Below are positions 13,201-41,317 of a stretch of DNA of 64,000 bases, in pieces (the first letter of the stretch is position 1; every line of letters starts with the position of its first letter). Source of the stretch: Tetraselmis striata (Eukaryota > Chlorophyta > Chlorodendrophyceae > Chlorodendrales > Chlorodendraceae). Below the pieces are notes generated by a model that ran no database searches, had not been told where the DNA came from, and saw only the letters and a program-made list of their open reading frames with translations. Made by a program: the position numbers and the translations under genes. The stretch lies in the NCBI GenBank assembly GCA_006384855.1, contig VCJN01002218.1:21339-85338 (forward strand), given 5' to 3'.

Positions 13201-16074
13201 GCCGGAGAAGCGAATTGTTTGTGTGTTTTGGGGGGGGGGGGGGGGGGGGGGGCGCAGGGCGGCAGTGTTCACGCCAGCATTTCACCTTCATCAGCAGCCC
13301 GGGCAGCACAAAGCTCGCCACCGCCTGCAGCTTGCGCAGTCTATCCAACGGCGACGCCTTTGGCGGCCTAGCAACGGGCTCATCCTGGGGGGGCGGAGGG
13401 GAGAAGGGGGGGGGGGGGGGGGGGGGGCGGGGGGCATTATGCTCGGTCGGGTCGTTCAAGCATGCAGCACCCGTGCCCGTAGTTCAAGTCAGCATGTCCG
13501 TGGTTTCGCCAATGAGGCACGGCCACGCGCCCTTCTGGCGAGTCGATCTCAGGGCTTGGCTCACCTGGCCAGCCGGCTGGTTGCGCTTGGCTGCCTCCAG
13601 CTCCGCCTTCTGCGCGTCGGTCGGCATCGCAAACTGGAAGGAGGCGAAGAAGCGCGTGTAGCCGGGGCGCACCGGCAGGAAGTACAGCCGCGTCTGCATG
13701 ACGCCAGACGGCTTGATGTAGGTCGTGTCTGCGGTGGAGGGCGCCGTGAAGGCGCGCGTCGCCAGCTGCCCATCCGTGGAGGCGCTGTAGCCGCCGTGCT
13801 TGAGCACAAACCCGCGGCTGCTGATCTTGCCGTCCAGCTGCGGCAGGCGGCACGCGGGCCTCGGCCTGATTGCGGGATGGAGGCAGCCACGCGTGCGTGC
13901 GCGTGTGTGTGATCAGGAGAGCAGAGCATGTGTGAGGAGCACACCTTGAAGTCCCTCATGGGGACGGCCGATTCCGGCGAGTACTTGGTGAGCCCAAAGC
14001 CGAGGCCCTCATGCAGAAAGTTGGCGTGGCAGGGGTCGTGCGCGTTCTCCAAGAACATCGTGAAGTCGATGGGCGCCTCTGCCATCATGAACTCCGCCGA
14101 CCCCCCGCGCGGGTCTGGCGGCGGCGCGCTCATCTGGGCCTCCACCCAGCGCTCGGGGCTGGCGTCCGGCCACACCCAGAGCAGGCCCTGCGCAGCACCG
14201 TCGGCGCCCTCAAGCGGTGTGGTGGGCGAGGTGGCCGGTGTGCGGGGCAAAGCAAGGCAGCAGGCGGCGCGTATCCCTTGTCTTCGCCATTGGCACATCC
14301 ATGCTAAACATAAGGCGGCAGCCGGCGCCCTCACCTGGCTGAGCTGTGTCGGGTAGCTGATTGCCTTGGATTGCGGCAGGCGGCACGCTTTGGCCTCGCT
14401 ACAGGAGGATTCAGTGTGTGTGTTGGGGAAGGGGGGGTAGGGGGCAAGCGCAGCGGATGAGACGGGAAGAGAACGAGCACCATCACACACAACCCTTTGA
14501 TCCCTGTGTGACCAGGGACTGTGTTATTGCAAGAATCAAGTTGTTCACAGCAGCCGACTCTCCCCCCATAGGCAGCCTCTGCCGTTCCCCCCTCCTCCTC
14601 CTCCCCTCCTTCATTACAGACGCCCCCCCCCCCCCCCCCCACCGGGGATGGCCTGATGGCCGCCTGGTGCCCCCTTGGCGCCTGGATGGTTCGCACGCAT
14701 GGCCGGCCGATGGTTCGCACCTGGCTTCACTGACGGCCATCGGCAGCCGGGTGCACTCGCCCCGCCCGTTGTAGCAGTAGCCGTGGTACCGGCACATGAG
14801 GTCGCCCTCCGGCGTGACCTTGCCCAGCGACAGCGGCGCCAGCTTGTGCGGGCACGCGTCGTCCACCACCCGCCACTCGCCGGCGCCATCCTTCCAGCAG
14901 GCCAGCGGCTTGCCTGGTACGCGGCCACACGGGGAGAGCGGGCGGGGGGGGGGGGGGGGAAGTTGGCCGATACTGATACACTACGAAGTTGTTTGCGGAG
15001 ATCACCCACATGGCCAATGCCGCGTTGATGATGCGGCGCGGGGTTACCGGTACCAAGCACTGCGATTGAAGGGACATGGGGTGTCTCTGTCATGGCATCC
15101 GGGGGGCATTCGCTTCACATCCTCGCCGCAGGTGGCGCTATTAAACGGAGTCAGAGTCGGAGGCAGAGTCGACAACCAGAGAAACACACTGTAGCTTGCC
15201 CTCCCTTCCCCAAACACAGCGCAGCCTCGTGACTCGAGCGAACTGCTAGACGTAATTGAGATGCAGGTGTGTGCAGAGCTTGCTCACCGAGGACCCTATG
15301 CCCTCAGATTGCATGTACCCCCCTCTGAACACAGCGAACATCGTGACGGTGCTCGTTATTAAGCATTTCCCCAAGTCCAATTCCGTCCCACTTTTCAAGA
15401 GGGGGGGGGGGGGGGGGGGGGGGTCCCCTGGAGACACGGACACTCGCTAGCGGGCCGCGCTAGCAGGTGTTTTTCCGCCCCACGGACAGGACTGGCAACA
15501 GTGAAACTCTTGCAGCGCCTTCCCGGCGGCCTGTCTAGGCAGCTACCCAGTTACGGACCGCCCTGAATAGGCGGCAGCTCCGAAGGTAAAACACCGCTGA
15601 GGCATTCCACAAGACTATATGAAGGTCAGTGACGGAATTTCCCGCGAATAGGGGATCGCCGTCTAAAGCACTGCCATTAAAGCAACTCGCAATAGCTACG
15701 GAAAGATCTGCGAAACCTGGCAGGTAGGGCGTACCCAGGACCTCCAGCTCGCTAGGGCGGCCATCCTCCAAGTCGGAGGCGCGCGCCAGCGGGTACCAGT
15801 TGCGGGTCCACTCGAATGTCCCCTCCCCCTCGCCGCTCACGGTCCGAGCCTCCACGGGCGCAGACGCCCAGACGCCCATGCGGCGGCGGTCTAGGCCGCG
15901 GCTGTGGGCGGGGCCCCGGCTGGCGCGGTGCCGGGGGGAGGGCGGGGCGGCGGTCGAGACCGATCTCGGCGCAGCGGATCCCTGCGGCGGTGCTCCCACT
16001 GACCAGGCAGCACCGCGCCGGCCGGTGGGCGCGACCCGGGGGGACGCGGGGCTTGTGAGCAGCCGAGCACCCAT
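10221..16074 (-). CDS. Rieske-type oxygenase of the PAO/TIC55/PTC52/CAO family
   Basis: Twelve exons: 15735-16074, 14721-14913, 14335-14398, 13945-14187, 13565-13837, 13286-13384, 12559-12672, 12384-12440, 11419-11537, 10938-11076, 10375-10459, 10221-10279. They join in phase to about 594 residues. The N-terminus (to about residue 80) is Ser/Ala/Arg-rich, like a plastid transit peptide. FEWTRNWYPLARASDL then opens the oxygenase. The Rieske [2Fe-2S] ligands are CPH and CRYHG, 17 residues apart. The mononuclear iron site is in FLENAHDPCHANFLHEGL. The C-terminus carries the HCRSC (CxxC) motif typical of this plastid group, followed by two hydrophobic segments, suggesting a thylakoid or envelope anchor. 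Family members oxidise chlorophyll-type tetrapyrroles; which substrate is used here cannot be read. The intron after 12559 uses a GC donor. Introns are long: the gene spans 5.9 kb for 1.8 kb of coding sequence. The last two exons are the least certain. Confidence 0.88.
13388..13427. repeat. G-rich homopolymer tract abutting an acceptor
   Basis: A G-rich run sits in intron 5 of the Rieske gene immediately upstream (in sense) of the acceptor at 13385. It therefore serves as a C-rich polypyrimidine tract. A longer pure run is at about 13230-13252 in the next intron. Confidence 0.85.
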
Positions 16075-20314: not shown

Positions 20315-23300
20315 AAGCCGCCTAAAAGCGGCCCGCATCCCGCATAAGGCGGGATGGATGAGTGATGCGCGCACGGTTCAGAGTCCGGGCCACGCGAGCC
20401 CGCGTGTGTGTGGGTGATCCTCGGACGTGCTGTGCAGCTTCAGCAGCGGGATGGCAGACGAATCTGCGCCGTCTGATTAGGCAGCGAGCGCGCTCTCGAG
20501 CGGCCACCAAGCTCAGGACCCCGAGGAAATCTCTTGCGAGCAAGGCCTCCTGGTGAGCCCGGGTGATGCACCGAGTGCCCCGCGATGAGAGGGCACCCCG
20601 ATCCGCAGCCAAGCATGCGATACCACGCACTGTGCGGTGCACCCCCTTACTCACCTCACCCACTGTGCCGAAGACCATGCCCGTGTACTCCGACAAATCC
20701 AGGATGTCTCGAAGAGGACCCTTATGTCCGGGCTCTGTGTTGTGCCACGCCGCATCCCGCGCAGCCAACCCCCGTTGTATGTCGCCCAACAGGGAGCGCT
20801 CAAACCGATCTACAGCCGTGGCCCGGGGCACTGAAGTGTACTTGACCACGTACCGCATAGTCTTGAACTCCAACAACGTGGACTTCAAGCTCCGGGGATC
20901 ATAGCTCCCGGTCACGACGTTGAACGCCGGAAGGGAGAGCTCTGCGTCCGGCACTAGGTCCTTGAGCTCATCCTTGGGTACGGTGTTGCCGAGAGGCACT
21001 GCCTGCTGGAACAAGTCATCCACCTCCCGCCGTACTGCGATACCTAGGTCGTGAACACAGTGATCGCGGAAGGCATCTGCGATAGCGTCGTGCGGTACAC
21101 GCCAGTGAGCGTCTCCAGGCGCCGGGAGGTTCATGAGCGCGTCGCCGTATAGATCAACAATGACGGGGTTATGCTCCGTCGAGGGCAGAATGATCTGGCA
21201 CCCAACCACCGGGGCCAAGCACGGGCTAGGCAGAAAGAAGTACCCGGCAGCGACCTCCCGCAGCCCATGCGGAGTCATGGCTATCCGCGCGGTGGGGATG
21301 GCCACTGTCCACATGCCCGACGCCGCGTCGAGCTTGCGATGATGAAGATCCGTTCCCTACATGTGGCGAGGAGAGCGCACACCTCATTTCGAAGCCGAGA
21401 GTTGTTGGCCTGGTCTAGAAATGCCGTCAGCTCCTTTTGCGAGCCCGACGCAGCCTCCACTTCCCGCTCCATATGGCGTGCATCTGCGTCGCCGAGATGG
21501 CCAGCAGTAGCCGCTTGGAGGCGGCCCCGCGCCTCGCGCATCTCCGCGGCGTAGCTGTCCGACCCATGAGCATCGTTGAGGAAGTGGTCATACTGGCGGG
21601 CGGAAGAATTTGCGTTGAAGCTGCCTCGGCCAAGTACGGTCCCGAGCTGTGGGTCGAAGAAACCAGGTAGGGGTGGGGGTGTTGGTGCCGGAGTTCCTAG
21701 TCAGGAACCTTGGGAGGATGGCATTCATGCAGCCGACGAAGGCGGCATCACGAACAGTAGCCATGCGGCGGATGCCAGCTCCCTTCAATCGAGTGGGGAG
21801 GTGAAGCCTGCTGCGCGCCCTGGCCACTGCATCCTCGCTCAAGGTAGCCACCTCCGCTGCCATGGGGTCGGGGTCGTGCAAAAGCTCCGCCAAGAAATCG
21901 GTGACCACCGGATTGGTGTCGGTGCCGTACGTGGAGGGATCAAAAGAGACCCCTAGCACCCGTTCGACCGCCGCGAGGATGGTGGCATTCACCGACTCCG
22001 CAAAGGCCTCCACCTCGGACGGAAGACAATTGCGGAGCCAATACCCCGCCTTGTGTTGCATGCAATGCTTGAGCAGGGCCCATGCGTGGTGATGCAAGGC
22101 GTGGGTGTACCGACGGCTGGGCTTGGCATATAGAAGCTTGCTCAGGCTAGCGTCCACCTCCTCTCGTAGCTCCTCCGCCTTGCCGCGCATGTACGCCTGC
22201 ACATACTCTTGCGATCCGTGCGGCACGTTCAGGACCGCGATGCCGTGATGGCCATCTAGCTCGGGCCACTCGATGTCGGCCGGAGCCTCACGCCGCGCGG
22301 CCTCCATGTCAGCGCTGTACGCCGGCATCTTGTCGAAGCGCACCTCAAGCCCCACGGACGCCTTGATGGACGTGCGGAAGGCGTGAAGAGCCGGCCAAAC
22401 GTGCTCCGGAAGGCCCACCAGAAATCCATCGTCGGCGTTGAAGCGCGCCGCCCCGTCATTGACCTCCAACGTGGTATCACACTGCTGCACCTCGGGGTGA
22501 ATCGCGACGCAAAAGGAAGTCGTGGCCAAAGGTGCGCCCCTGTTGCACGCCGTCCTCCGACCGCAGAGGGGCGGACCGGTCGTCCACGACCAGATACGAA
22601 TCCGTGGAGAGGGAGGCTAGGAGCGCAGGGATGACAGGGTGTAGTGGAGAGCAATCGATGTGGCGCTGGATGATGGTGCGGCGCCATGCCTCGTTGTAAG
22701 CGTTGCGAAGGTCTGTGTGGACGATGACGGCACGTGGGCCAAGCTTCTCGGCGATGAGCCGGACGCCGTGGATGAGCACAGAGTCGCCCGCGGGAATGCC
22801 AACGCCGAGCTGAGATGGAGCGAGCACCGACACGTATGCCTCCTTCATGTTGTCCACCACTGCCCGCTCCGCTGCGCGCCGCTCCGCCTCCCCGACTGCC
22901 ACAGGCCGCACGTCCGGGGCCCTCCCCTCGCCTAGCTTCTTGACAGGTGCCACGAGCCTAGGAGAGGCGAAGAGCCGGTTGAACCACCCGGGCAGGCGAC
23001 CTTGGAGGTACATTGAGGCAACCTCCGACATGGCGCGGACTATCGCGGGCCCGGACGCCGGGGCGTATTCGCCCACCAAGCAGCGGAGATACTCGTTGCG
23101 CATGCCTGTTGGCCCCGCCGCCACGTGCTGCTTGAGTTGCTAGTACGGCACGCGCATGTCCACCGTCAGGGCGGCCTCGTCCACCAGAATGTCATACGCG
23201 GCGTCTGGGATCGGGTGGCTACGGGACGGGTGCTTGTCGCGCAGCTGGGCGAGGATAGCAGGATCGGACAAGTCGCCCATACCCTTAGAAGATAGTCGGC

Positions 23301-26640: not shown

Positions 26641-29600
26641 ATGCGGGGCCTGCTGCTGGGCCTGCTGGTGGCGCTGTCGGCCGGCAGCGCCGTCGGCCAG
26701 GCCGAACTGGACTCCTACTTCCCGGGCGGCTACCCCACGACGTGCGGGGCGTCCTGCACCGTCGCGGTGGACAGCGCCGCGGGGCTGGCGGCGGCGATGC
26801 GGAACCAGTCGGTGGAGGCGGTGGTGCTGCTGGCCGACGTCGCGGTCGGGGCGGAGCACTTTGGGGCTGGCGAGGGGCGCGCCGTGACGCTGGAGCGCGA
26901 CCTCATGCTGCATGGCGCCGCCCCCGGCGCGGCCGTGACCCTCAGCTTCGAGCTGAGCGGCACCAGCGAGGCTCGGCCCTGGCTGCGCCTCGCACGCGGG
27001 CAGCTACTGCTGTCCAACCTACGGACGGGGCCGGGGCTCGTGGAGCTGGGCCATCCCAGCGGGCATATGCCGGTGACCCTCGTGGGCGTAGACCTCTACG
27101 GGCGCGACCCCGCCAGCGGGGAGTACTGTCAGTGCACGCAGCTGGGGGTCATGGACAGCCTGCTGGACGTCACCGTCCGCGGCGGGCAGCCGCTGCGCGC
27201 GGGGCACGCCGGCGGAGCAGATGCAGCTGCTGGTGCGGGACCAGCTCTTCCTGGGCGAGACCCTGCGGATGAACAGCGTCTTCAGCCGCGACCGCTGGAG
27301 CTTCCTGGACTTCGACGAGGCGGTGTTCCCGCAGGGCATGGCTTTCCGCATGCGCAACGCCACGCTGCTGTTCCCAGAGGCGCCACCGCGGCCTCCCGTG
27401 GAGGAGGCCGCGATGCGGACGGACTGCCAGAGCAGCATGACGCCCGGCCTGCGGGGGCGCGACTACAACGGCAGCGTTGCCGTCACACGCAGCGGCGTGC
27501 CATGCGCCTACTGGCAAAACGTGCAGATCCCAGGCCTGGACCTAGGCGACCTCCGTGGCAACGCCTGTCGGTGAAGCCCGCCTACCCCCCGCGTCCCCAT
27601 GCCAAACAATACACGCCATGCCATTTACAGATTGAGGCAGAATTTATCGAATAGCGCCACTCCCACCAAACCCTGGCGGCTGCGCGTCTGCCTGCGGCTA
27701 AGCTGGGTGACTGTTTGCTGTCAGCCCGCTGATGTCTCGGATCGCCTCCGGCCCTCCCTCCCCCTTTTGCCACGTTAAACAACATGACGCGCCGTTTTCA
27801 AAAACCATCAGGAAAAAAATGATTGTGAGCAAGCAGTGCCATTCCAGCCTGCTGGTTGGTTATCCTGCCTGCGTCAACGGTCGATTGCCAGTGACTGCCA
27901 GCCTTCTGATGCCCCCCCCCCCCCCCCCCCCCCCCAACCACCACCCCCTCCCCCCATCCATCTCTCCGATGCGCAGCAACCCCGGTGACCATTCAGGTGA
28001 CTCCCCCCTGCCCCCCCCCCTCTCAGGCACTATCCTTCCTTGCCATGGCTTGCCTCATCTCGTTGTTGCCACTCGTTGCCCATCCATAACCTCATCTGGT
28101 TTCCTCCTGGGTATGGGTGGTTTCCATCTGGTTTCATCTGGTTTCCCCGGTTCGAGAGGGACAGCGATGGGCACCTCACCGTGCCCTCTGCTGCCGTGCG
28201 GCAGGCGCCTGGTGCTTTGTGCGGCTGTGGCACCGGCAGCTGGCGCTGGACACGTACATCCCCAACTTCCCCTTCAAGTGGGAGTACTGCGACATTCCGT
28301 CCTGCGAGGAGCGCGACAACGCCACCACCTCAAGCTGCCAGAACCTTACGGTGAACCCCCCCACCCCTTGTCCATTAACCGCCGCCCCCCGCCCCCCCCC
28401 CCCCCCCCCCCCCCCAACACACACCTTGCTCCACCCAATCTTGCGGCTGACACGGCAGCGCTGTGGGCCGCGCGTTGCGCAGGACAATGGCGCGATGTAC
28501 ACCGGCAACGTCTCTGTGGCGCACACCGGACTGGAATGCGAGCCCTGGACCCGCACGTGAGCCCAGCGCCCAGGCTGCTGCTGCTACTGCTGCCCCCCCC
28601 CCCCCCCCCCCCCCCGCCCCTGCTCAAGGCGCCTGCTTAGAGCCTGATTCCCCTCGCCCCCCCCCCCCCCCTTCCCCCTCTCACAAACCCTTGGCTCAGG
28701 TACCCTGCCCTGTACGGGAACATCGAGGGCAACTCGTGCCGGAACCCATACGGCGGTGAGGACTTTGTCGGCTGCTTTGTGCAGGGACGCTGGTCTCGCT
28801 GTCCGGTGGAGGTGCCCCCCCCCCCCCCCCCCCCTCCCTTCTCGCATTCTCGCTATTGCCGGGGCGCTAGGGCTGCTGGTATGGTGAGATGCCCGGGCGG
28901 GGATGCATCCTGGCTGTTTAGTGTACCTCAGGGTTTCAAGAGCTTGATTAGGGTTTGTGTACATGGAGTTTTATAGTGCGTGCGAGGGGGCTTAGTATCA
29001 AGGCTAGGTATCAGTGTTATGTGTCTGGAGGGTTCGAAACATCGGTAATAGCAACACCACTGATCGCTTTTTACAAGTGTTTCAGCTGAGTATTTATGTT
29101 TATGAGTCTTCAATGTACCCTGTAGGGCGTCATGGACTACTTAGGGTTCAAATGTAGGGTATGATGTGTCATGTCTCAGGGCTAGTTTTCACTTGGGACC
29201 TTCGATTGGGTGTGCTTGGGATACGCACGTGCTTCCCGCTGCTGAGGACGCCGCCACCGCCCGCTCGTGGTTCCGCCGCACACAGGCCTGCGCGCCCCCG
29301 AAGGTGCCAGTGTCGCCCTCGGGCTCCCCGGCCCCACCTGCAGCCCCCACCGCCGAGCCGCGCGGCACCGACGTCACCGCCATCGCCGTGAGCGTCACCG
29401 TGGCCGCGCTGGTCATCGCCGCCGCGGGCCTGATCGCGCGCGCGCTGTTGAAGCGGCGGGAGCTGCGCATCGCGACCGACAGCGTGGTGACTGTGGACGC
29501 CACTGCGCCGACAGAGGGCACCCGCTTGAACAGGAAGCTCAGGTGCCGTGCTTCACCCCCCCTCCCCCCCCCAATCCGTTCCGACTAGACATCATCACCT

Positions 29601-32600
29601 GGAGTCCACAGCTCCAATGCCAATGATGTCCGGTAGCGGTTACTTCGGTGTGATCTACTTGAACCATCGGAGTTTATGATGCAAGCGATGGAACACTTTC
29701 TTTACCAACCAAAAATTCTACGCTGCGTTGGGTCCGCTGACCGCAAATATAATGAACTGTTTTGTATCGTGGAGACGCAGATTGCGCGCTATATATACTT
29801 TTGTGGTGTATTCTAGATAAATGTAGCTTTTGGGGTTTTGTGGAAGCGGTGGGTACATAGCGGACCCGAAGCGTGGTGCGGTATAGGCTGGGCAGAGCCG
29901 CTGGAGGGCATATCCGGCTGCCCTTGCTTATCCTGACTCAATGCCCCATTATGTACTCGATTCCCAGCCGGCAGGAGAGCACTGCCTCCAGCACCGTGGC
30001 GTCCTCGGTCACGGTGCCGCAGTCCTTGGCCAGCTCGGAGCTCCGGGTGCGGCTGCAGCAGAACGATCTCATGGAGGTACCCCCCCCACCCCCCCCCCCC
30101 CCCCCCCACCCCACAGCAAGCAACTGCTCGCGTCCCTCGACCAGTTGCCGCACCTGGAGGATGCTGCAGCATGTCCGCTGTGCTCCATCAAGGAAGCCTC
30201 CCCCCCCCCCCCCCCCCCCAAACTGATCCTCCTGCTCCTTTCTTTTTGCATCCTGCCAGGATACAATAGTCTTGTCGAGCCCGATCGACATGGGGCACAT
30301 CACGCTCAAGAGGCGCCTGGGCTCGGGCTCCTTCGCCAAGGTCAGCTCCACCCCCTGCTCTCAGCCCCTCTCCCCTTCCTGCTCTTCCCCCCTCTCCTGC
30401 TGGCCAATGTCATCCACCCTCTTGTGACTTGCGGCTTGGGCCTGATTACCCCCCCCCCCCCCCCCCTCCAACCCCTTCACCTACGCTCCGCAGGTGTGGC
30501 AGGCCTCCTGGCTGGGCGCAGACGCGGCGGTCAAGGTGATGAACATCAAGGGGCGCACCGCGCAGCTGCGCGCGCACCTGCTGAAGGGTGTGGAGGCCAC
30601 CTCGCTGCGCGGGATCACCCACCCCAACGTGGTGCAGACGTACCATGTGTACAAGGTGCCCCCCCTCTTTCCCCTAGGCCTCCTCACACGTAGCTGGTCT
30701 ATGTTGGAAAGTGAGGGAGTACCCTACCCTACGCAACGGGAACCACGCCTTGAGGTTGGTGCATGTTGTTGTCCCCCCCCCCCCTCCCCCCCTCCCCCCC
30801 CCTGCTTTTCGGTCTACCAACTTCGGGGCGGAGACATCGAAACCTTATTGCATCTGAGCTTATCTCGACATTTGTCGGACTGAAGAGGGCCAAGCTATGG
30901 GCCCAATTGAGCGGCAGGGATTCCCTTAGACCACCTGGCACCTGTAGCTCAGTCTATGCAACGTCTCTCGCAGTACTCTCTCTCCCTCTTTCCCTCCCCC
31001 ATACATGTATGCCCATACACACAGATACGATATCATTTAATTTATGTGGTCCGCATTGGACAGTTAATCTTATGAACAACTCCTCGTATATGAATGTGCT
31101 TTCTCAAGTTTAAATGATTTTTTCGCGGGAACACCGGTCCCAATTGATACTAACTATGTCCTGATTTGGCTGTACTCGTAGTATAATATACAGTCTTTCG
31201 TGCCTTTGGCGCTGAGCCCCCCACCCCCACTCTCTGTTCTTCCAATTCCTTTGCAGGTTGTGGACAGGTCGTTCCCGGAGGACCCGTCTGATGCGGACGA
31301 AATCGACGAGAACGGCCACCAAGTGCCTAACATCGCGGAGCTGTGGGTGGTGCAGGAGCTGTGCAATAAGGGGGACCTGCGCGCCAGCCTCGACGTGAGC
31401 CGCCGCTGCTCATTTCGCTCGCCAAGAAGCCTTTTATTTATTTTTGGATATTATTTCACTCTTAAACTAGAGCCTGCAGCTGGAACACCCTAATTGAAGT
31501 TGGAACCCTAAGATATCTAACTTTTCTTGTAGTTACTACTGTTTGTAGACCCTACTACGATGCCCCTGCTGATGAAACTTTCAGAAAAACCTAATACCAT
31601 ATTCTACCACCGCCCCGCTTGCCACTCGCCAAGTCGCTAATCCTCTCCGCCCCCCGTGGCTCGCCTCTCCGTCGCTAGATGTTGTGCCCACTAAAGCAAG
31701 GCTCGGTGAAGATCCTGTGCACCACGCTGAAGGAGGTTGTCCTCGCGTTGTCGTACCTGCACCACCTCGGGATCGTTCACGGCGACCTCAAGTGTGAAAA
31801 CGTTTTGCTGAAGTCTTCCACCAGCGAGCACGGCCTGATCGCCAAGGTTGCGGATTTTGGACTGTCCCGCGACCTGCGCGGACTGGACTCGTACTACGCG
31901 ACCAACATCTCAGGTGCCGCAGTCCCCCGGCCCGGGAGCTTCCGGGTTCGAGTGGCTGTTTGGATTATTCTAATTGTCCCGCCGGGGCGTTGCCTCGGAA
32001 TCGCCGGCTCACCCGGCGAGTGCCGCCGACCCCCGCAGGCGACATGAAGTACCTCGCCCCCGAAGTTCTAGAGCACAACCGGATATCCCCCAAGATGGAC
32101 ACCTACAGCCTGGGCTTCCTCATCTACGAGCTCTGCACCGGGGACCGCGCCTCGATGGACCACCTCACGCTCGCCACGCACGTGCAGGAGGTGGTGCACC
32201 AGCGGAAGAGGCCGACCTTCCCCGACACAGTCGTCCTGGAGCTCAAGGCGCGCCCCGATATCTCGTCATACTATGTTACGACTTAATTTATTCTACTCGC
32301 GACTTTTTGTATGGATGGTAGTGTTCATAGTAGGCGATGGAAATCGCGTTGTTCACTGTGTTGCCGGTTGCGTAGTAGGTAGGCATACGAATACGGTCGG
32401 TACCGAGTCATCCTCATTCAATTCATTATTAAAGCCGAAATTAGCCATAGCCTGACAACGAGTACTCGAGGTATTAGCTTTGCTGTTTATGTTTACTACG
32501 TCGATGGTGACATACTGGTACCAGGTATGATAGTCGCTATTATATCATAGATAGACACACTTAAAAAAAACACTTATGCGATAGTCGCTACTATATCTTC

Positions 32601-33052
32601 ATAATTTTGTGCACTTTCAAATTCTGTGACAAGTGTCCCATCCAAACATATATGTGGCGATTTTACGTTTTTGCGGCGTAATGTGACAGTAGTTTACAGA
32701 AGTGCCTCTCCAGCTAGTCTGATTCGCCCTCCCGATGGCCCGCTGCTATCTTCCCGCCCTTGTTGCCACGCAGTCGCTGGCCGAGGACTGCTGGGACCAC
32801 GACCCAGAGCAGCGCCCCTGCGACCAGAGCATCCTGAAGCGCCTGGACGAGGTACTTGTTAAGTACTCGAGCCCGCAGAAATCGACGTTCAGCATCAAGA
32901 GCTTCAAGGACATGACGGCAAACTTCAACACCATGCTGACAAGCGGCCAGGCGGACGGCACGGAAATAGACGGGTACCTCGTCCCCGAGCTGGGCCCCGC
33001 CGTGACGGCGTCCCTCGTGGATCCCAAGTTGGATGTCCGGCTGGAGATCTGA
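26641..33052 (+). CDS. Receptor-like TKL kinase with two kringle domains
   Basis: Exons: 26641-27570, 27977-27984, 28205-28350, 28483-28556, 28700-28811, 29247-29542, 29968-30076, 30260-30340, 30494-30655, 31257-31394, 31679-31913, 32039-32247, 32774-33052. The product is about 925 residues. It has a signal peptide ([19 protein letters not shown]), then a repetitive beta-rich region to about residue 270, resembling beta-helix ectodomains of algal receptors. Kringle 1 runs from DCQSS through GVPCAYW, NACRNPG, AWCFV and WEYCDIPSC. Kringle 2 runs from SSCQ through [21 protein letters not shown] and RCPVE, with its last Cys after the next junction. A Pro-rich stalk and membrane helix (residues about 465-489) precede a kinase domain with [30 protein letters not shown] and a C-terminal [10 protein letters not shown]. 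One extra base near 27181 breaks the first exon, and the last intron has a GC donor. The ligand is unknown; Ser/Thr or dual specificity is likely. Confidence 0.85.
27977..27984 (+). other. 8-nt microexon inside kringle 1
   Basis: CAACCCCG is flanked by an acceptor (GCGCAG) and a donor (GTGACC). It links a phase-2 donor at 27570 to a phase-1 start at 28205. Its inclusion gives the kringle signature CRNPG before AWC. Skipping it shifts the frame. Confidence 0.65.
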
Positions 33053-33976: not shown

Positions 33977-34386
33977 TCATCGGGCTTCATCGATGCGGGT
34001 GAGCGAGTGCAGCTCCGCCGCCGACAGCACGGTGAGGCACCTTCCCTTGGAGCCAAAGCTGTCGTCTTCGCGACAGCTGTAGAGGTACCCGTTGGCGCGG
34101 TGCACCTTGGTGTCTCCCTTGGGGCCCACGCCCGCGTGGCCGGCGGTGTCGAGCGTGATGCGCAGGAAGGGCCACACCATCTTGCCCGCCGCCGCCTCCT
34201 CCTCCGGCCCGTCCCCCAGGCACAGGCACTGCGTGACGCAGCCCTCCAGCCGCTGCTGGATCTGCTGGAAGCACCACAGCTTCCCCACCCCCTTGGCGCT
34301 GTAGATGTCTGCGGGGCGGAAAAACTCCTGCGGGCCGCCGCCGGGTTTCGGGGGCTTAACCGCAGCATGAGGACCGCACGCACGCA

Positions 34387-34427
<41 letters not shown>

Positions 34428-37350
34428 CTTTTCACCCCCTTTCTCATCAGGCAGTAAAAAGGGAAGTAAAAAACGCAAGGAATGTAACCCCGCACCCAGC
34501 GCATGTCCCGCAGGGATATACAAAGTAACCCAGATGTCACGCGTCATTATCAAACATGCCGTGGATCGCGAAACAACACGTGGGATGCGCCAAACTAATC
34601 AGGGCGCATGGATGCCTAAAGAAAACTCGAGAAACGGGCAGTCTAAGATATCGCTTGTGGGTGACACGTACGGCGGCGGGGGGGGGGGGGGGGGGGGATG
34701 GCGACATGCCCTTCGGTTCCCCCATGCCCAAGTACGTTCACCTTTTTGTCTAAGTACTATAATCGAAGACCCTGAACCACCGGCCCAGCAGCTGCACCGT
34801 ACCTGGAACATGTCCGCCACAGTGGCCGGGATTGTAGTCAAGGCCAAAGTACTTAGGCATTTGGGGACATGACTCCCCGTACGTGGCCCCCACAAGCAAT
34901 GTGTCAGACTGACGGAACGCTTCGTAGGCATATATACCCGGAACACTCTACGGGTGAAACGAATCGGTATGCCAAAAACGTTCCGATGCACCTTAATCGT
35001 AGCAAGGACGCGACCCCGCTTCGACGTATTGCAGAAATTGATACTGTGTGAATATGCTCGTCACAGGCTGTTGTAGTTAATATTTATGCGCGTAGTTATG
35101 TTGACAGATGATAAATCTGTCATTTCACTCGAAAGGGGAAACGGAGCCGGTGGGTGTGTGGGTGTGTGGGTGTGCTGGGGGCCCGGGGGCGGTGGCCTGA
35201 GCCGCTGTGTACAGGGGTGGGTGCATGCGTCGGGTGCGCACGTCCAGCCGGAACAGCATGAGCTTCGCCAACGTGGGCAGCAGCTCCCCCGTGGTCACCA
35301 GCAGCATCCGCGTCTCGACGCCCTCCTCCTCCAGAAGCTCCGTCGACAGGCGCGTCAGCTCCGTCAGCGTGTGCCGCGCGTGGGACAGCCAGCCGTTGGT
35401 CAGCTGGTCCGTGTTGTCGTACAGCTCCGCGATGTCAGCGGCCGTTTGGCTGCTCAGTGGCATGTTCTCCAACCCCTAACAGTGCCACAGAAGTGGGGGT
35501 TGGGGTTGGGGGGGGGGGGGGGGGGGGCATATTACATTCATCAGTCAGAGTGCCAACGGACCCTAACTAGCAACTGTCCATTGCAACTTTTTTTTGAGAT
35601 TCCACCAGCCTACTCTGTGGATATCGCCATGGTCGCTGTTTATTGCTCCCAGTAAAAGCATAGCGTCAATCAAACAGTATTTCAATGAAGTGTCAAACGT
35701 TGAGCCTAGAGGTCCCACATCAATCGGAGGAGGAAATCAATTCAAAGGCACCCGCGGCGTCAAAACAGTGAACGACTTTGGGATGGCTGCGAAGTGTTTG
35801 CGGCCGGGTGCCTCCGGCTGTGGTGGGGCACGGTGGTGGGGAGTTCCCCTCACCTGCTCGTACAGCTGCACGGCGACCCGCATGCGCTGCGCCACCTCCG
35901 GGCACATCTCCTGGAACGGGCCGGTGGACGCGGAGGCGTCCAGCTCGTTTGCGGGGCAGCCGCCCCCGCACTCATCGTATGGGTCGAGGCTGGACACGTG
36001 CGGGATGTTGATCTCCTCGACCTTGCAGCAGGGAGGGGCAGGGGGGGGGGGGGGGGGGGGCATCAGTGAGGCACTCCAGCCGCGCTGCACTTGCTCTCCT
36101 TCCCTGGTCTTGATTTCTTCTGAGTGATCAGGTCAGAGAACAGCCCCTCTAGATCTCGAGCAGCTTGAGCTGCCAAGGCGGAATGCCGCAACCGCGTGAG
36201 TATGCAGCCCTCTCTGATTGCGATACAGTTACATAGTATCGGGGCGCCGACGAAATACGGCTGAGGAAGGCCTCCATCACGACTACCGTGATGTGCGGAC
36301 GTTTGCGGTGATGGCGGGAGAGGTTTACCCGGCGACCCTGGGGCAAGGAGCACGACTGTAGCTGTCTACTCATCCACACTGCGAGAGGCATCATACTGCC
36401 AGTCCTTAGCTGAGGAGAAGTTCTTGCTCGAAGTTGGGGACGCAGAATGGCAGATGCGCTGATGATTTTGTGGAGGGTGTAGTTTGCTGTGTAAATCTGG
36501 GATGACGATAATAATTATTATTATGTGGTTGGCTGTGGAAGTGAGCGAACGGCGCGAGCACTACGCTGCAGCTGCTGGCGGTGGGAATCATTGAGTGCGT
36601 CACAGCTCCTCCCACCACTCCAGAAACGCGCCGCGAACCAGCCGAAAGCACGGTCCTTCGTTGTTGCGCTGCGAGAACAAGACTATGCGCTACCCGTAAT
36701 GTTACCACAGGCGAAAGCGTCATCCCCCGAAGCAACTCGAAACGGAAGGTAAGGCTCTGGGACACCACCTCAGCGCCCTAGCCAGAGCGCCCGGCCCGCC
36801 CAAGCCGGGACGGGGAAGCCCATACAGGTACCAGGAGTACTCCGCACAGACAAGCGTACGGCGGCATAAGCGGCACGTGTGGCAAGGATTCAGAAAGCAG
36901 TAAGAAGCAGAAAGGATTTCTAAGTACTTGCAACAGCAGCTTACCCGTACTCGACTATTCATATGTACTGCTGTGATGCTGTCATCTGGGCCCGCGCATA
37001 TCGACCCGCGCCGAGCAGAGTGGCCAGCGCTCGCCCCCCCCTACGGCGGGGGTGGGGGTAGTCGGCACGTGGGATATTCGGGGACGCCGCCCTGACCCGC
37101 CCCGGCCCCGCGACCAGGGCTCACCTGACGATAGAAAAAGTTGTCGTCTATGAAGTCCAGGATGGCGTCCTTGCCACCGTTCGCCCAGCGCGAAGGCCTC
37201 CGGCTTTGGGCATGACGGGTTGGCGCGCGCAAACTCGTGGTTAAGCAGACTATTGAACACGATGAGCGTCTCGTCCAGGTCCCACACATACGCACGCGTC
37301 CGTTGGGGTAATCTCCCGGCCTCGCCAGCCGGGCCTAGGGTCCCAGCCAT
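33977..37350 (-). CDS. Eyes Absent (EYA) family HAD phosphatase
   Basis: Four exons: 37125-37350, 35854-36021, 35242-35475, 33977-34327. They give about 325 residues, close to plant EYA homologues, which consist of the EYA domain alone. HAD motif I is VWDLDETL near residue 23, with the EYA-type D-x-D-E-T nucleophile. Motif II is LLVTTGELLP, the motif III Lys lies in IYSAKGVGK, and motif IV is LGDGPEEE. CFQQIQQRLEG precedes motif IV as in plant homologues. EYA proteins are protein tyrosine phosphatases; the animal proteins are also coactivators through a separate N-terminal domain that is absent here. One extra base at about 37173 breaks the first exon, and removing it restores GERWKDAILDF and phase 0 at the donor. 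Introns carry sense-strand C tracts (about 34678-34697, 35509-35527, 36043-36060), two of them just upstream of acceptors. Confidence 0.9.
34386..34425. repeat. (CA)n microsatellite
   Basis: About 20 CA dinucleotides in the intron upstream (in sense) of the last EYA exon; it reads as (GT)n on the sense strand. Confidence 0.9.
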
Positions 37351-38809: not shown

Positions 38810-41317
38810 CTACTTCTCAGTGGCGCCATACTTCTCGATAAGGATGTTCTTGAGGTGAGGGATGAGGTGCTCGTCCGCCGCCGGCATAGCCTTCTTGTCC
38901 GTGAGCTCCGCCAGCTTAGCGCCCTCGCCAATGGTGCCCCCCACAAAGATCTTCACACCCTCCACGCCCTTCCCGTCAAGCTTGGCCGCGGCGCCCATCA
39001 GCCCGATGTCGCCCACCTGCGCCTGCCCGCATGAGTTGGGGCACCCGGTCCAGTTCAAGCGGACCATCTTAGGGATGTCCAGCTGCTTCTCCAGCTCCGC
39101 AGCCACGTGGATGGCGCGGTTCTTTGTCTCAACCATACCAAAGCCGCAGAACTGGGAGCCGGTACAGGACACCAGTCCACGGGAAATGTTGCCTGCAGAG
39201 CACAGCGCCGAGAGCGGCAGCAAGCATGAGTCTCGGAATACCAATAAATGCTGGTGTCTGATAGATAAACACCGCATGAAACATCCTGCCAGCTGTGCAC
39301 CGCTCTGGTATGGGAGAACAGTTCACCAGGCGGCAGTTGCTAGAATGGACAAGGTCTGCATGCAGGATGGCGAAGGAGTTTGCAAGGGTGGAGCCGGTGG
39401 TTGCAGGACTCACCAGGGTTGCTCGGGAACTTTGCACATATGGGCTCGGCCAGGAAGGCTTCAACATCGGCGTCCTTGACATCGGTGAAAATGATGTTCT
39501 GGTCCACCGTGAGGCGCATCTTGCCGCCGCTGTACTTCTCCGCAAGATCCGCTGCCGCAGGAAAGGAAGAAGGGGGGAGAGGGGGGGGTGGGGGGGGGGG
39601 GGGGGGGGGGGGGCTCAGCGGGCGAGGACAGCCGTCACATTTACAATCTTCAACATGAAGCGGCTCACGAGTAGCAGGCGGCGGAACATGACAGGCACTC
39701 ACCAACGTCAAGGCAGTCCTGGGCGCTCATGCGGCCAGCAGGCACGCACAGGCCAACCCAGTTCAGGCCCTCCTGCCGCTGCTTGTGCACGCCCAGCAGG
39801 TCACGGCGCTCCCAGTGGTCGCCGTACTCTTCGGGCACAGCATCCGCAATGGTCACTCCCATCTTCTTCTCAATCTGCAATCAAAGCAGCCGCAGCTCGA
39901 CGTCACGGCCACATACTTTGCTACACAGGCAGCAGACGATGATATACACAGCACGCAAGGTACCTGGGAAGGATTGAGCAAGGAAGGGGGAGGGGGGTCG
40001 AATCGTACCTCTTCCTTGAGCTTAGGCACACCCCAGTCATCCAGGAAGTACATCATGCGTGTCTTCTGGCGCACCTCGCGAGAGCCATTATCACTATTTA
40101 CCAGCACAGGGGGCAATGTCAGCTCAAATGGAGTGCCGCTCAGATCCAAGGCCAAGCGGGGCAGACGGTCTGAGGAAGACATGGGAGGGAGGTCGGTGGC
40201 GCACCGGAACAGCTCGAGCAAGGCCTTGCAGAAGGGGACAATCTGGTCAGGGGTGACCGACATCTGGCCATCCACAGAAACCACGTTCCGCACAGCGCTG
40301 AACATGCCGCCTAGCCATACGTTGAAGACGACCTCGCCGCTCTCCGGGTGCTTGATGGCCTGGAAGGCGAGGTCGTTGATGTGGCAATGGGGGAAGTCGT
40401 CGCGGGAGGGCGAGATGGCGATGTTGAACTTCCGGGGCAGGTTGCACAGCTCGGGGTTGCCCTTGCCAAAGTTGGTGATCATGTCCTGTGTGTCGATGCA
40501 AAGCTGGCGGACGTCCATGAGCTCATGAGGATCCACGCCACTGATGGCGCTGCCCGTAATGTTCCGCACGTTGTCCATGCCGCTCTGCTTGGCAGTGATG
40601 CCAAGGTCCATCATCTTGTCGAGGATCACAGTGGCATCCTCAAGCGGAATGCCGCGCAGCTGCATGTTGGCGCGGGTTGTGATGTCGGCGCAGGCGCCTG
40701 TTGAGGGCGCCTCCGTGCCGGCCTGCGGGTACTTGGTGATGCTGTTGCCCAGCTCGCGCATCTGCTCAGAGTTGAGCTCCTGCCCTGGCACCTGGCGGGG
40801 CGAAAGCAGCGGAGAAACTCAGCATATACACGGCGGGCTGACACGCGTGTGACAGGTAAGTCGACTACGTTGCAAGCGGCAAACATATACAACGACATGG
40901 CTGCATTTGAAGGCGCGGGTGGAAGAGGGTTGGGCGGGCGTTCAGGCGTACTCGGAAGCGCATCATGAACAGCCCGGGCGACTGCTTGCGGCGGTGGAAA
41001 AGGCCGCTCCACTTGCCGCGCACGTCAATGTCGTCGACGTCTAGGTCCTCCCACGAGGACTCACCCTTCCGCAGCAGATCCGCCAGCTCGTAAACCTCGC
41101 TCCATAGCTCGGAGCCGCACTTGGCGAGCTTCACCTTCTCCGCCGGGTTGAGCTTGCCCGTGAGCACGCGCTCGCGCGCCTCGGGGCCGAGGCTGCGCAC
41201 GCCGCTGATGCTCAAGTCGATGTCCTTGGCGGCTGCGCGCAGCGGCCGACCGCCACGGCGGGCCGCGGCGGTCGAGGGTCGCGCGGCCTGAGCACCAGAG
41301 ATACCAGATATCGACAT
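38810..41317 (-). CDS. NIR: Ferredoxin-nitrite reductase, plastid
   Basis: Five exons: 40952-41317, 40009-40791, 39703-39874, 39414-39551, 38810-39192. All junctions are in phase and give about 613 residues. The protein reduces nitrite to ammonium with six electrons from ferredoxin in the plastid stroma. A basic Ala/Ser-rich N-terminus of about 30 residues looks like a transit peptide. Family blocks in order: GLFHRR, FMMRFR, ITTRANMQLRGI, QSGMDNVRNITGS, DPHELMDVR, LPRKFNIAIS, QKTRMMYFLDDWGV. The four Cys ligands of the 4Fe-4S/siroheme centre are in CTGSQFC and GCPNSCGQ near the C-terminus. Sulfite reductase was considered, but the RxKWxGLFHRR context and the order of blocks fit nitrite reductase better. 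Intron 3 carries a 35-base sense-strand C tract about 27 bases before its acceptor. Confidence 0.95.
39578..39614. repeat. G homopolymer tract in nitrite reductase intron 3
   Basis: A nearly pure G run that reads poly-C in the sense direction, just upstream of the acceptor at 39552. A similar pure run (about 41380-41405) lies just upstream of the start codon. Confidence 0.9.

Follow-up and report, generated by a model that had tools for sequence, protein, structure and literature searches.

Structure of the Locus

The window, meaning the whole 64,000-nucleotide stretch of Tetraselmis striata DNA analysed here, carries a gene on its forward strand between positions 26641 and 33052. Inspection of the raw sequence, combined with tests of splice phase, yielded a 13-exon model that runs from the ATG at 26641 to the TGA at 33050–33052; the expected kringle pattern served as a guide when the splice model was drawn up. 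The spliced protein, of about 916 residues, contains in order a putative signal peptide, an unnamed N-terminal domain, two kringles, one membrane helix and a complete kinase domain.

All exons lie on the forward strand. Exon 1 (26641–27570) encodes the putative signal peptide, the N-terminal domain and the start of kringle 1, the first Cys of which lies at 27425. A 20-nt micro-exon (27977–27996), entered in phase 2 and left in phase 1, supplies the RNP motif of kringle 1, and the following exon (28205–28350) completes this kringle (WCF...WEYCDIPSC, last Cys at 28303) and opens kringle 2 (Cys at 28336). Kringle 2 continues through the exons at 28483–28556 and 28700–28811, the latter ending in ...RCPVE, into an exon at 29286–29542 that holds its sixth Cys (29289), a Pro/Ser/Thr-rich stalk, the transmembrane helix (29367–29438; about residues 455–478 by hydropathy) and a KRR stop-transfer signal. 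A juxtamembrane exon (29968–30076) is followed by six exons encoding the kinase domain and C-terminal tail (30260–33052), located at 30260–30340, 30494–30655, 31257–31394, 31679–31913, 32039–32247 and, including the stop codon, 32774–33052.

The original prediction, made from the letters of the window, had all parts of the protein joined by in-phase introns. This is accurate from kringle 1 onward, where the splice-phase test found every junction in phase up to the stop codon, and the introns are of the GT-AG type with the single exception of a GC donor after 32247 (intron 12). It does not hold for exon 1, which changes frame near 27.2 kb: one frame is open to about 27200 and another thereafter. 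When introns were enumerated under loose criteria, 39 GT-AG candidates of 30–259 nt came out for this stretch. The change could stem from a single-base event, being then an assembly error or a true null allele, or else from a short intron of unusual type. The window also contains 29 runs of at least 12 C or G, several of them within introns of the kringle–kinase gene, and such runs may cause assembly errors.

As had been predicted, the protein begins with a hydrophobic stretch (about residues 1–20) that reads by eye as a putative signal peptide. The N-terminal ∼250 residues matched no Pfam family at E values up to 1, and no second copy of the region was found in the assembly at E 0.001; N-terminal regions from three related loci (C1077, C1418 and C1482; see below) do align to exon 1 of the window gene, with 23–29% identity. 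The best match in a profile search with the N-terminal domain was an adhesin binding region at E 0.15, which is not significant and the fold of which we take to be beta-helical, and a single-sequence AlphaFold2 model of the domain likewise gave nothing significant, its mean pLDDT of 46.1 being too low to serve in a fold search. There are thus no more than hints that the fold is perhaps beta-helical. The single membrane helix of the original prediction was recovered as a segment of about 24 residues with KRR a few residues after it; the best 19-residue Kyte–Doolittle mean was 2.56, for segments starting at residues 459 and 460.

Several other features were noted in the window. Just downstream of the gene, at about 33980–36130 on the reverse strand, are exons resembling an Eyes-absent (EYA) homologue; a hand-joined piece scored 110.5 bits against TIGR01658, under the cut-off of 195.3, and two of these exons on their own gave no Pfam match. 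Two open frames of ∼340 residues on the reverse strand (20322–22616) have by eye the look of retroelement remnants, and an open frame at 13561–14523, also on the reverse strand, contains a stretch resembling by eye Rieske-type oxygenases; neither region gave a Pfam match at E 0.01. A further reverse-strand exon, at 39853–40818, encodes part of a chloroplast-type ferredoxin nitrite reductase (NIR_SIR, 108.5 bits; PDB search E 3.8e-41). Together with the presence in the same assembly of plastid psaB, the closest PDB chains to which include several that are presumably green algal, this exon supports a green alga as the host of the gene. A contaminant origin was rejected on the grounds that the nitrite reductase exon lies in the same window and that relatives of the gene lie on five other contigs.

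Kringle Domains and a Conserved Micro-exon

Searching the spliced protein against Pfam returned the Kringle family (PF00051) at 54.6 bits (E 1.4e-14) in two stretches, above the cut-off of 34.3 bits, and thus bore out the two six-Cys kringle modules that had been predicted. Kringle 2 alone scored 32.7 bits (E 9.6e-8), just under the cut-off. The CRNP and WC signatures ascribed to the modules are both present in kringle 1; kringle 2 shares CRNP but reads GC where WC would be expected. In kringle 1, Cys 4 and Cys 5 are separated by a long insert. When 14 kringles were cut from the T. striata genome and aligned, the six Cys columns were Cys in all 14. A PDB sequence search with the window ectodomain matched the kringles of hepatocyte growth factor (E 8.2e-18), plasminogen and prothrombin, and the kringles of ROR1 and ROR2 were also among the matches.

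The Kringle profile gave four matches in the unspliced genome, all on contig C2483, and none in the window or at the other four family loci described below, because the kringles of the whole family are interrupted by introns. At about 32350–35035 of C2483, four kringles occur in open frames of great length made up of glycine-rich repeats (Pfam search of one frame). This contig is absent from the 128 kinase matches of the genome and shows a second, unrelated use of kringles in T. striata.

The CRNP signature of kringle 1 depends on the 20-nt micro-exon, which reads RNPGDHSG. Within the intron between exon 1 and 28205 there are 13 open, phase-compatible cassettes of 8–80 nt, only two of which encode RNP; both start at 27977, and the longer is 27977–27996. 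Inclusion of the micro-exon raised the Pfam score of kringle 1 from 27.3 to 45.9 bits. In a shuffled-intron control, an RNP cassette arose in 69 of 3000 cases, so that the cassette of the window, taken by itself, is suggestive and not decisive. C1418, C1756 and C1482 each contain a counterpart exon of 23 nt that agrees with it in motif and phases, and in C1077 the motif is fused to the upstream exon, followed by the same phase-1 intron. Splicing the end of exon 1 straight to 28205 also preserves the frame and leaves a kringle without RNP at the lower of the two scores; this alternative was rejected because the relatives have the RNP exon. It is these relatives that make the case for what appears to be a genuine RNP micro-exon of the window gene, overlooked in the original prediction.

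The pair of acidic residues that forms the anionic centre of the lysine-binding site in plasminogen-type kringles, which we take to be Asp-x-Asp directly after RNP, is absent from the alignment of both window kringles at the positions presumed to correspond (RNPGDH in kringle 1, RNPYGG in kringle 2). With this pair absent, classical lysine binding by the window kringles would be unlikely.

Kinase Domain

The spliced window protein matched Pkinase at 140.6 bits (E 8.2e-41; cut-off 31.7) and PK_Tyr_Ser-Thr at 139.2 bits (cut-off 23.1), and its PDB matches include ABL, CTR1, MAP3K9 and TAK1. The Gly loop (30320), Lys 590 (30533), Glu 610 (30593), catalytic Asp 712 (31784), DFG at residue 735 (31853) and APE at residue 761 (32056) are all retained, as is the Asn of the catalytic loop. 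The domain is thus complete, as had been predicted, and of the TK/TKL type; only the DLK loop favours TKL over TK. The catalytic loop reads HGDLKCEN (residues 710–717) and is of the non-RD type, the Arg of HRD being missing. Among the relatives the loops are HADLKLDN, HGDIKREN and HGDLKREN, and HGD or HAD is found at all five loci (six contigs).

The best 30 of the 128 kinase matches of the genome consisted of five window exons, five kringle relatives and 20 other kinases. Eleven of these 20 have HRD, three HGD and two HFD, and four did not match the pattern. The idea that a non-RD loop is a hallmark of the kringle family was weakened by the three HGD sequences, which belong to non-kringle kinases; the loop is therefore not special to this family.

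A Five-locus Family in the T. striata Genome

When the 224-Mb assembly was searched for kringles with three queries, the window protein, C1418 and C1077, each led to the same six contigs, namely C1793 (which holds the window), C1077, C1756, C1482, C1418 and C443; the search with C1077 also listed C2483 weakly (E 0.6 and 1.0). Kinase searches matched the same contigs on the same strand, a few kilobases downstream of the kringles. An alignment of C443 with C1418, covering 5620 bases, shows 98.0% identity. Given this identity, C443 is probably the other haplotype or allele of C1418, and five loci are counted here; it could alternatively be a recent duplicate. One exon anchor from C1418 is absent from C443, which was left unspliced.

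Kringle scores for the spliced relatives were 75 bits for C1077, 53.6 for C1418, 51.6 for C1756 and 43.9 for C1482, all over the cut-off, with the second kringle of C1418 alone scoring 23.2 bits. The intron phases of the kringle region (2, 1, 0, 2, 0) are identical in the window gene, C1418, C1756 and C1482, and three of the five introns (phases 1, 2 and 0, as judged from exon lengths) are kept in C1077. Putative signal peptides were recognised by eye in C1077, C1756 and C1482, and the N-terminal exon of C1756 also shows, by eye, an apparent frame change. The kinase halves of the relatives rest on exon-by-exon matches with incomplete splicing; the partial kinase of C1077 scored 28.4 bits against Pkinase, below its cut-off, and 24.4 bits against PK_Tyr_Ser-Thr, above its cut-off.

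A kinase tree was constructed to compare the kringle-associated kinases with others of the genome. The tree has 20 rows and is unrooted, and is based on a patchy alignment of 232 columns anchored on the window protein; 14 of the 20 other kinases were included, six having been omitted, by score, as apparent duplicates or close copies. The six kringle contigs form one group with a FastTree support of 0.943, a grouping that is consistent with a single fusion followed by duplication. Thirteen viral-contig stretches matched a pattern, and in a tblastn search with an 81-residue, hand-joined kringle query none of them encodes a relative.

Discussion

Comparison with Known Receptors

ROR and MuSK of animals combine an extracellular kringle, a single membrane pass and an intracellular kinase, and also carry a Frizzled cysteine-rich domain (and an Ig domain) beside the kringle. 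The likeness to these receptors drawn in the original prediction extends to the placement of a kringle outside and a kinase inside the cell. It does not extend further: no Frizzled or Ig match was found in a Pfam search of the spliced window protein at E values up to 1, a range in which the HMMER filters drop most matches above ∼0.1, and the catalytic loop, HGDLKCEN, differs from the HRDLAARN type of tyrosine kinases, so that the algal protein appears not to be a relative of ROR or MuSK. It is also set apart by its two kringles, its unnamed N-terminal domain and its occurrence at five loci.

Among secreted proteins, the proteases or protease-like factors hepatocyte growth factor, plasminogen and prothrombin have kringles that share with those of the alga the six Cys and the CRNP and WC signatures. 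The algal kringles differ in that they are borne by a membrane kinase and lack the two Asp residues at what are presumably the plasminogen lysine-site positions. A similar layout is seen in the non-RD receptor kinases of plants such as EFR, in which an ectodomain, a membrane helix and a non-RD cytoplasmic kinase follow one another as they do here (PMC8463890); the ectodomain of EFR is of the leucine-rich-repeat type, unlike the kringle ectodomain of the algal family. A leucine-rich-repeat receptor-like kinase is also encoded in T. striata itself, on the reverse strand of C2256 (2133–5306 of the reverse complement), in one open frame of 1058 residues that combines LRRNT_2 and numerous leucine-rich repeats with a helix recognised by eye as hydrophobic and with the beginning of a kinase, its loop being HGDLKCCN. 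It shares the ectodomain–helix–kinase layout of the kringle family but falls in another group of the kinase tree.

Proposed Function and Alternative Explanations

In our assessment the window gene and its counterparts at four other loci probably make up a green-algal family of receptor-like kinases that cross the membrane once. The kringle-bearing receptor kinase that had been proposed is supported by the domain order, by the four further loci and by the placement of the membrane helix in the exon that supplies the last Cys of kringle 2. Outside the cell such a protein would present the N-terminal domain and two disulphide-held kringles, and inside it a TK/TKL-type kinase. The ectodomain, kringles and N-terminal domain together, may bind an extracellular protein or glycan of the cell wall, a neighbouring cell or a microbe; this is probably the class of ligand, and any particular ligand would be less certain than the family assignment itself. 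Binding would then cluster the receptors or recruit an RD-type partner kinase, and intracellular Ser/Thr phosphorylation would relay the signal. Given the non-RD loop at all five loci, signalling through a partner kinase, as in plant immune receptors, would be more likely than simple self-activation, the loop being a lead to function and not proof of it.

The arrangement could instead reflect two adjacent genes, one for a secreted or anchored kringle protein and the other for a separate cytosolic kinase. In the window, as in C1418, C1756 and C1482 on inspection of their open reading frames, the sixth Cys of kringle 2 lies in the exon of the helix, so that any transcript encoding the whole of kringle 2 would also encode the helix; in C1077 the Cys and the helix occupy adjacent exons. 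The juxtamembrane and kinase exons join in phase, the introns from the helix exon to the juxtamembrane exon and on to the first kinase exon measure just 425 and 183 nt in the window, and kringles precede the kinase in the same order and on the same strand at five loci. With the shared exon and four further loci of the same order, the two-gene reading was rejected as highly improbable. The window copy might also be a pseudogene or null allele, its relatives being the functional members. The single frame change within exon 1 and the lack of a second assembly match to the N-terminal region at the threshold given above would fit such a decay, but the downstream exons, splice signals and catalytic residues are all in place, the C/G runs of the window and the apparent frame change in C1756 would be in keeping with assembly errors, and a short intron could also account for the frame change in exon 1; loss of function is accordingly considered improbable.

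More weight attaches to the prospect that the kinase acts mainly as a signalling scaffold, changing conformation when the ligand binds and leaving phosphorylation to a partner kinase, as proposed for EFR, although this too is judged unlikely. In its favour are the HGDLKCEN loop without the HRD Arg, the similar loops of the relatives, and the statements in PMC8463890 that the catalytic activity of EFR is dispensable and that non-RD kinases have low activity in vitro. On the other hand, the Gly loop, Lys, Glu, catalytic Asp, Asn, DFG and APE are retained, and an active enzyme is therefore possible. As for ancestry, the kringles might have been transferred horizontally from an animal and then fused to a resident kinase. 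Their best PDB matches are indeed animal kringles, in a database that holds few others; against this, five diverged family loci and the unrelated four-kringle giant gene on C2483 argue for long residence, and the long Cys 4–Cys 5 insert of kringle 1 also speaks against an animal source, so that transfer seems quite improbable.

Origin and Significance

Kringles are textbook animal modules, best known from blood-clotting and growth-factor proteins, and domain databases list some algal ones. PMC4448552 reports kringles in lysyl oxidases of ichthyosporeans, and their occurrence outside animals is therefore already in print. No algal kringle receptor kinase was among the matches listed in a search of the literature on kringles in algae and choanoflagellates, a search that covered mainly openly accessible papers. 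The parts are known; in the literature so covered, no report was found that combines them in a green alga, on a non-RD kinase, at five loci and with a micro-exon conserved among them. The original prediction named two routes to the fusion, an independent origin and an old pool of kringles, and either may apply.

A bolder proposal, tentative and rather doubtful at present, is that the algal kringle receptor kinases arose independently of ROR and MuSK and serve in the recognition of microbes or mates, as a counterpart of the pattern-recognition receptors of plants. If true, duplication would have given the alga a set of cell-surface sensors that have non-RD kinases and are diverging in their ectodomains. 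Membership of the window gene in a family of receptor-like kinases, the reading preferred here, would mean that neither the pool of kringles nor the joining of kringles to a membrane kinase is confined to animals, and the family would offer a tractable system for the question of how receptor kinases gain new ectodomains. Together with the leucine-rich-repeat receptor kinase of the same genome, it suggests a diversified repertoire of algal receptor kinases, for which roles in immunity, mating and wall sensing are conceivable.
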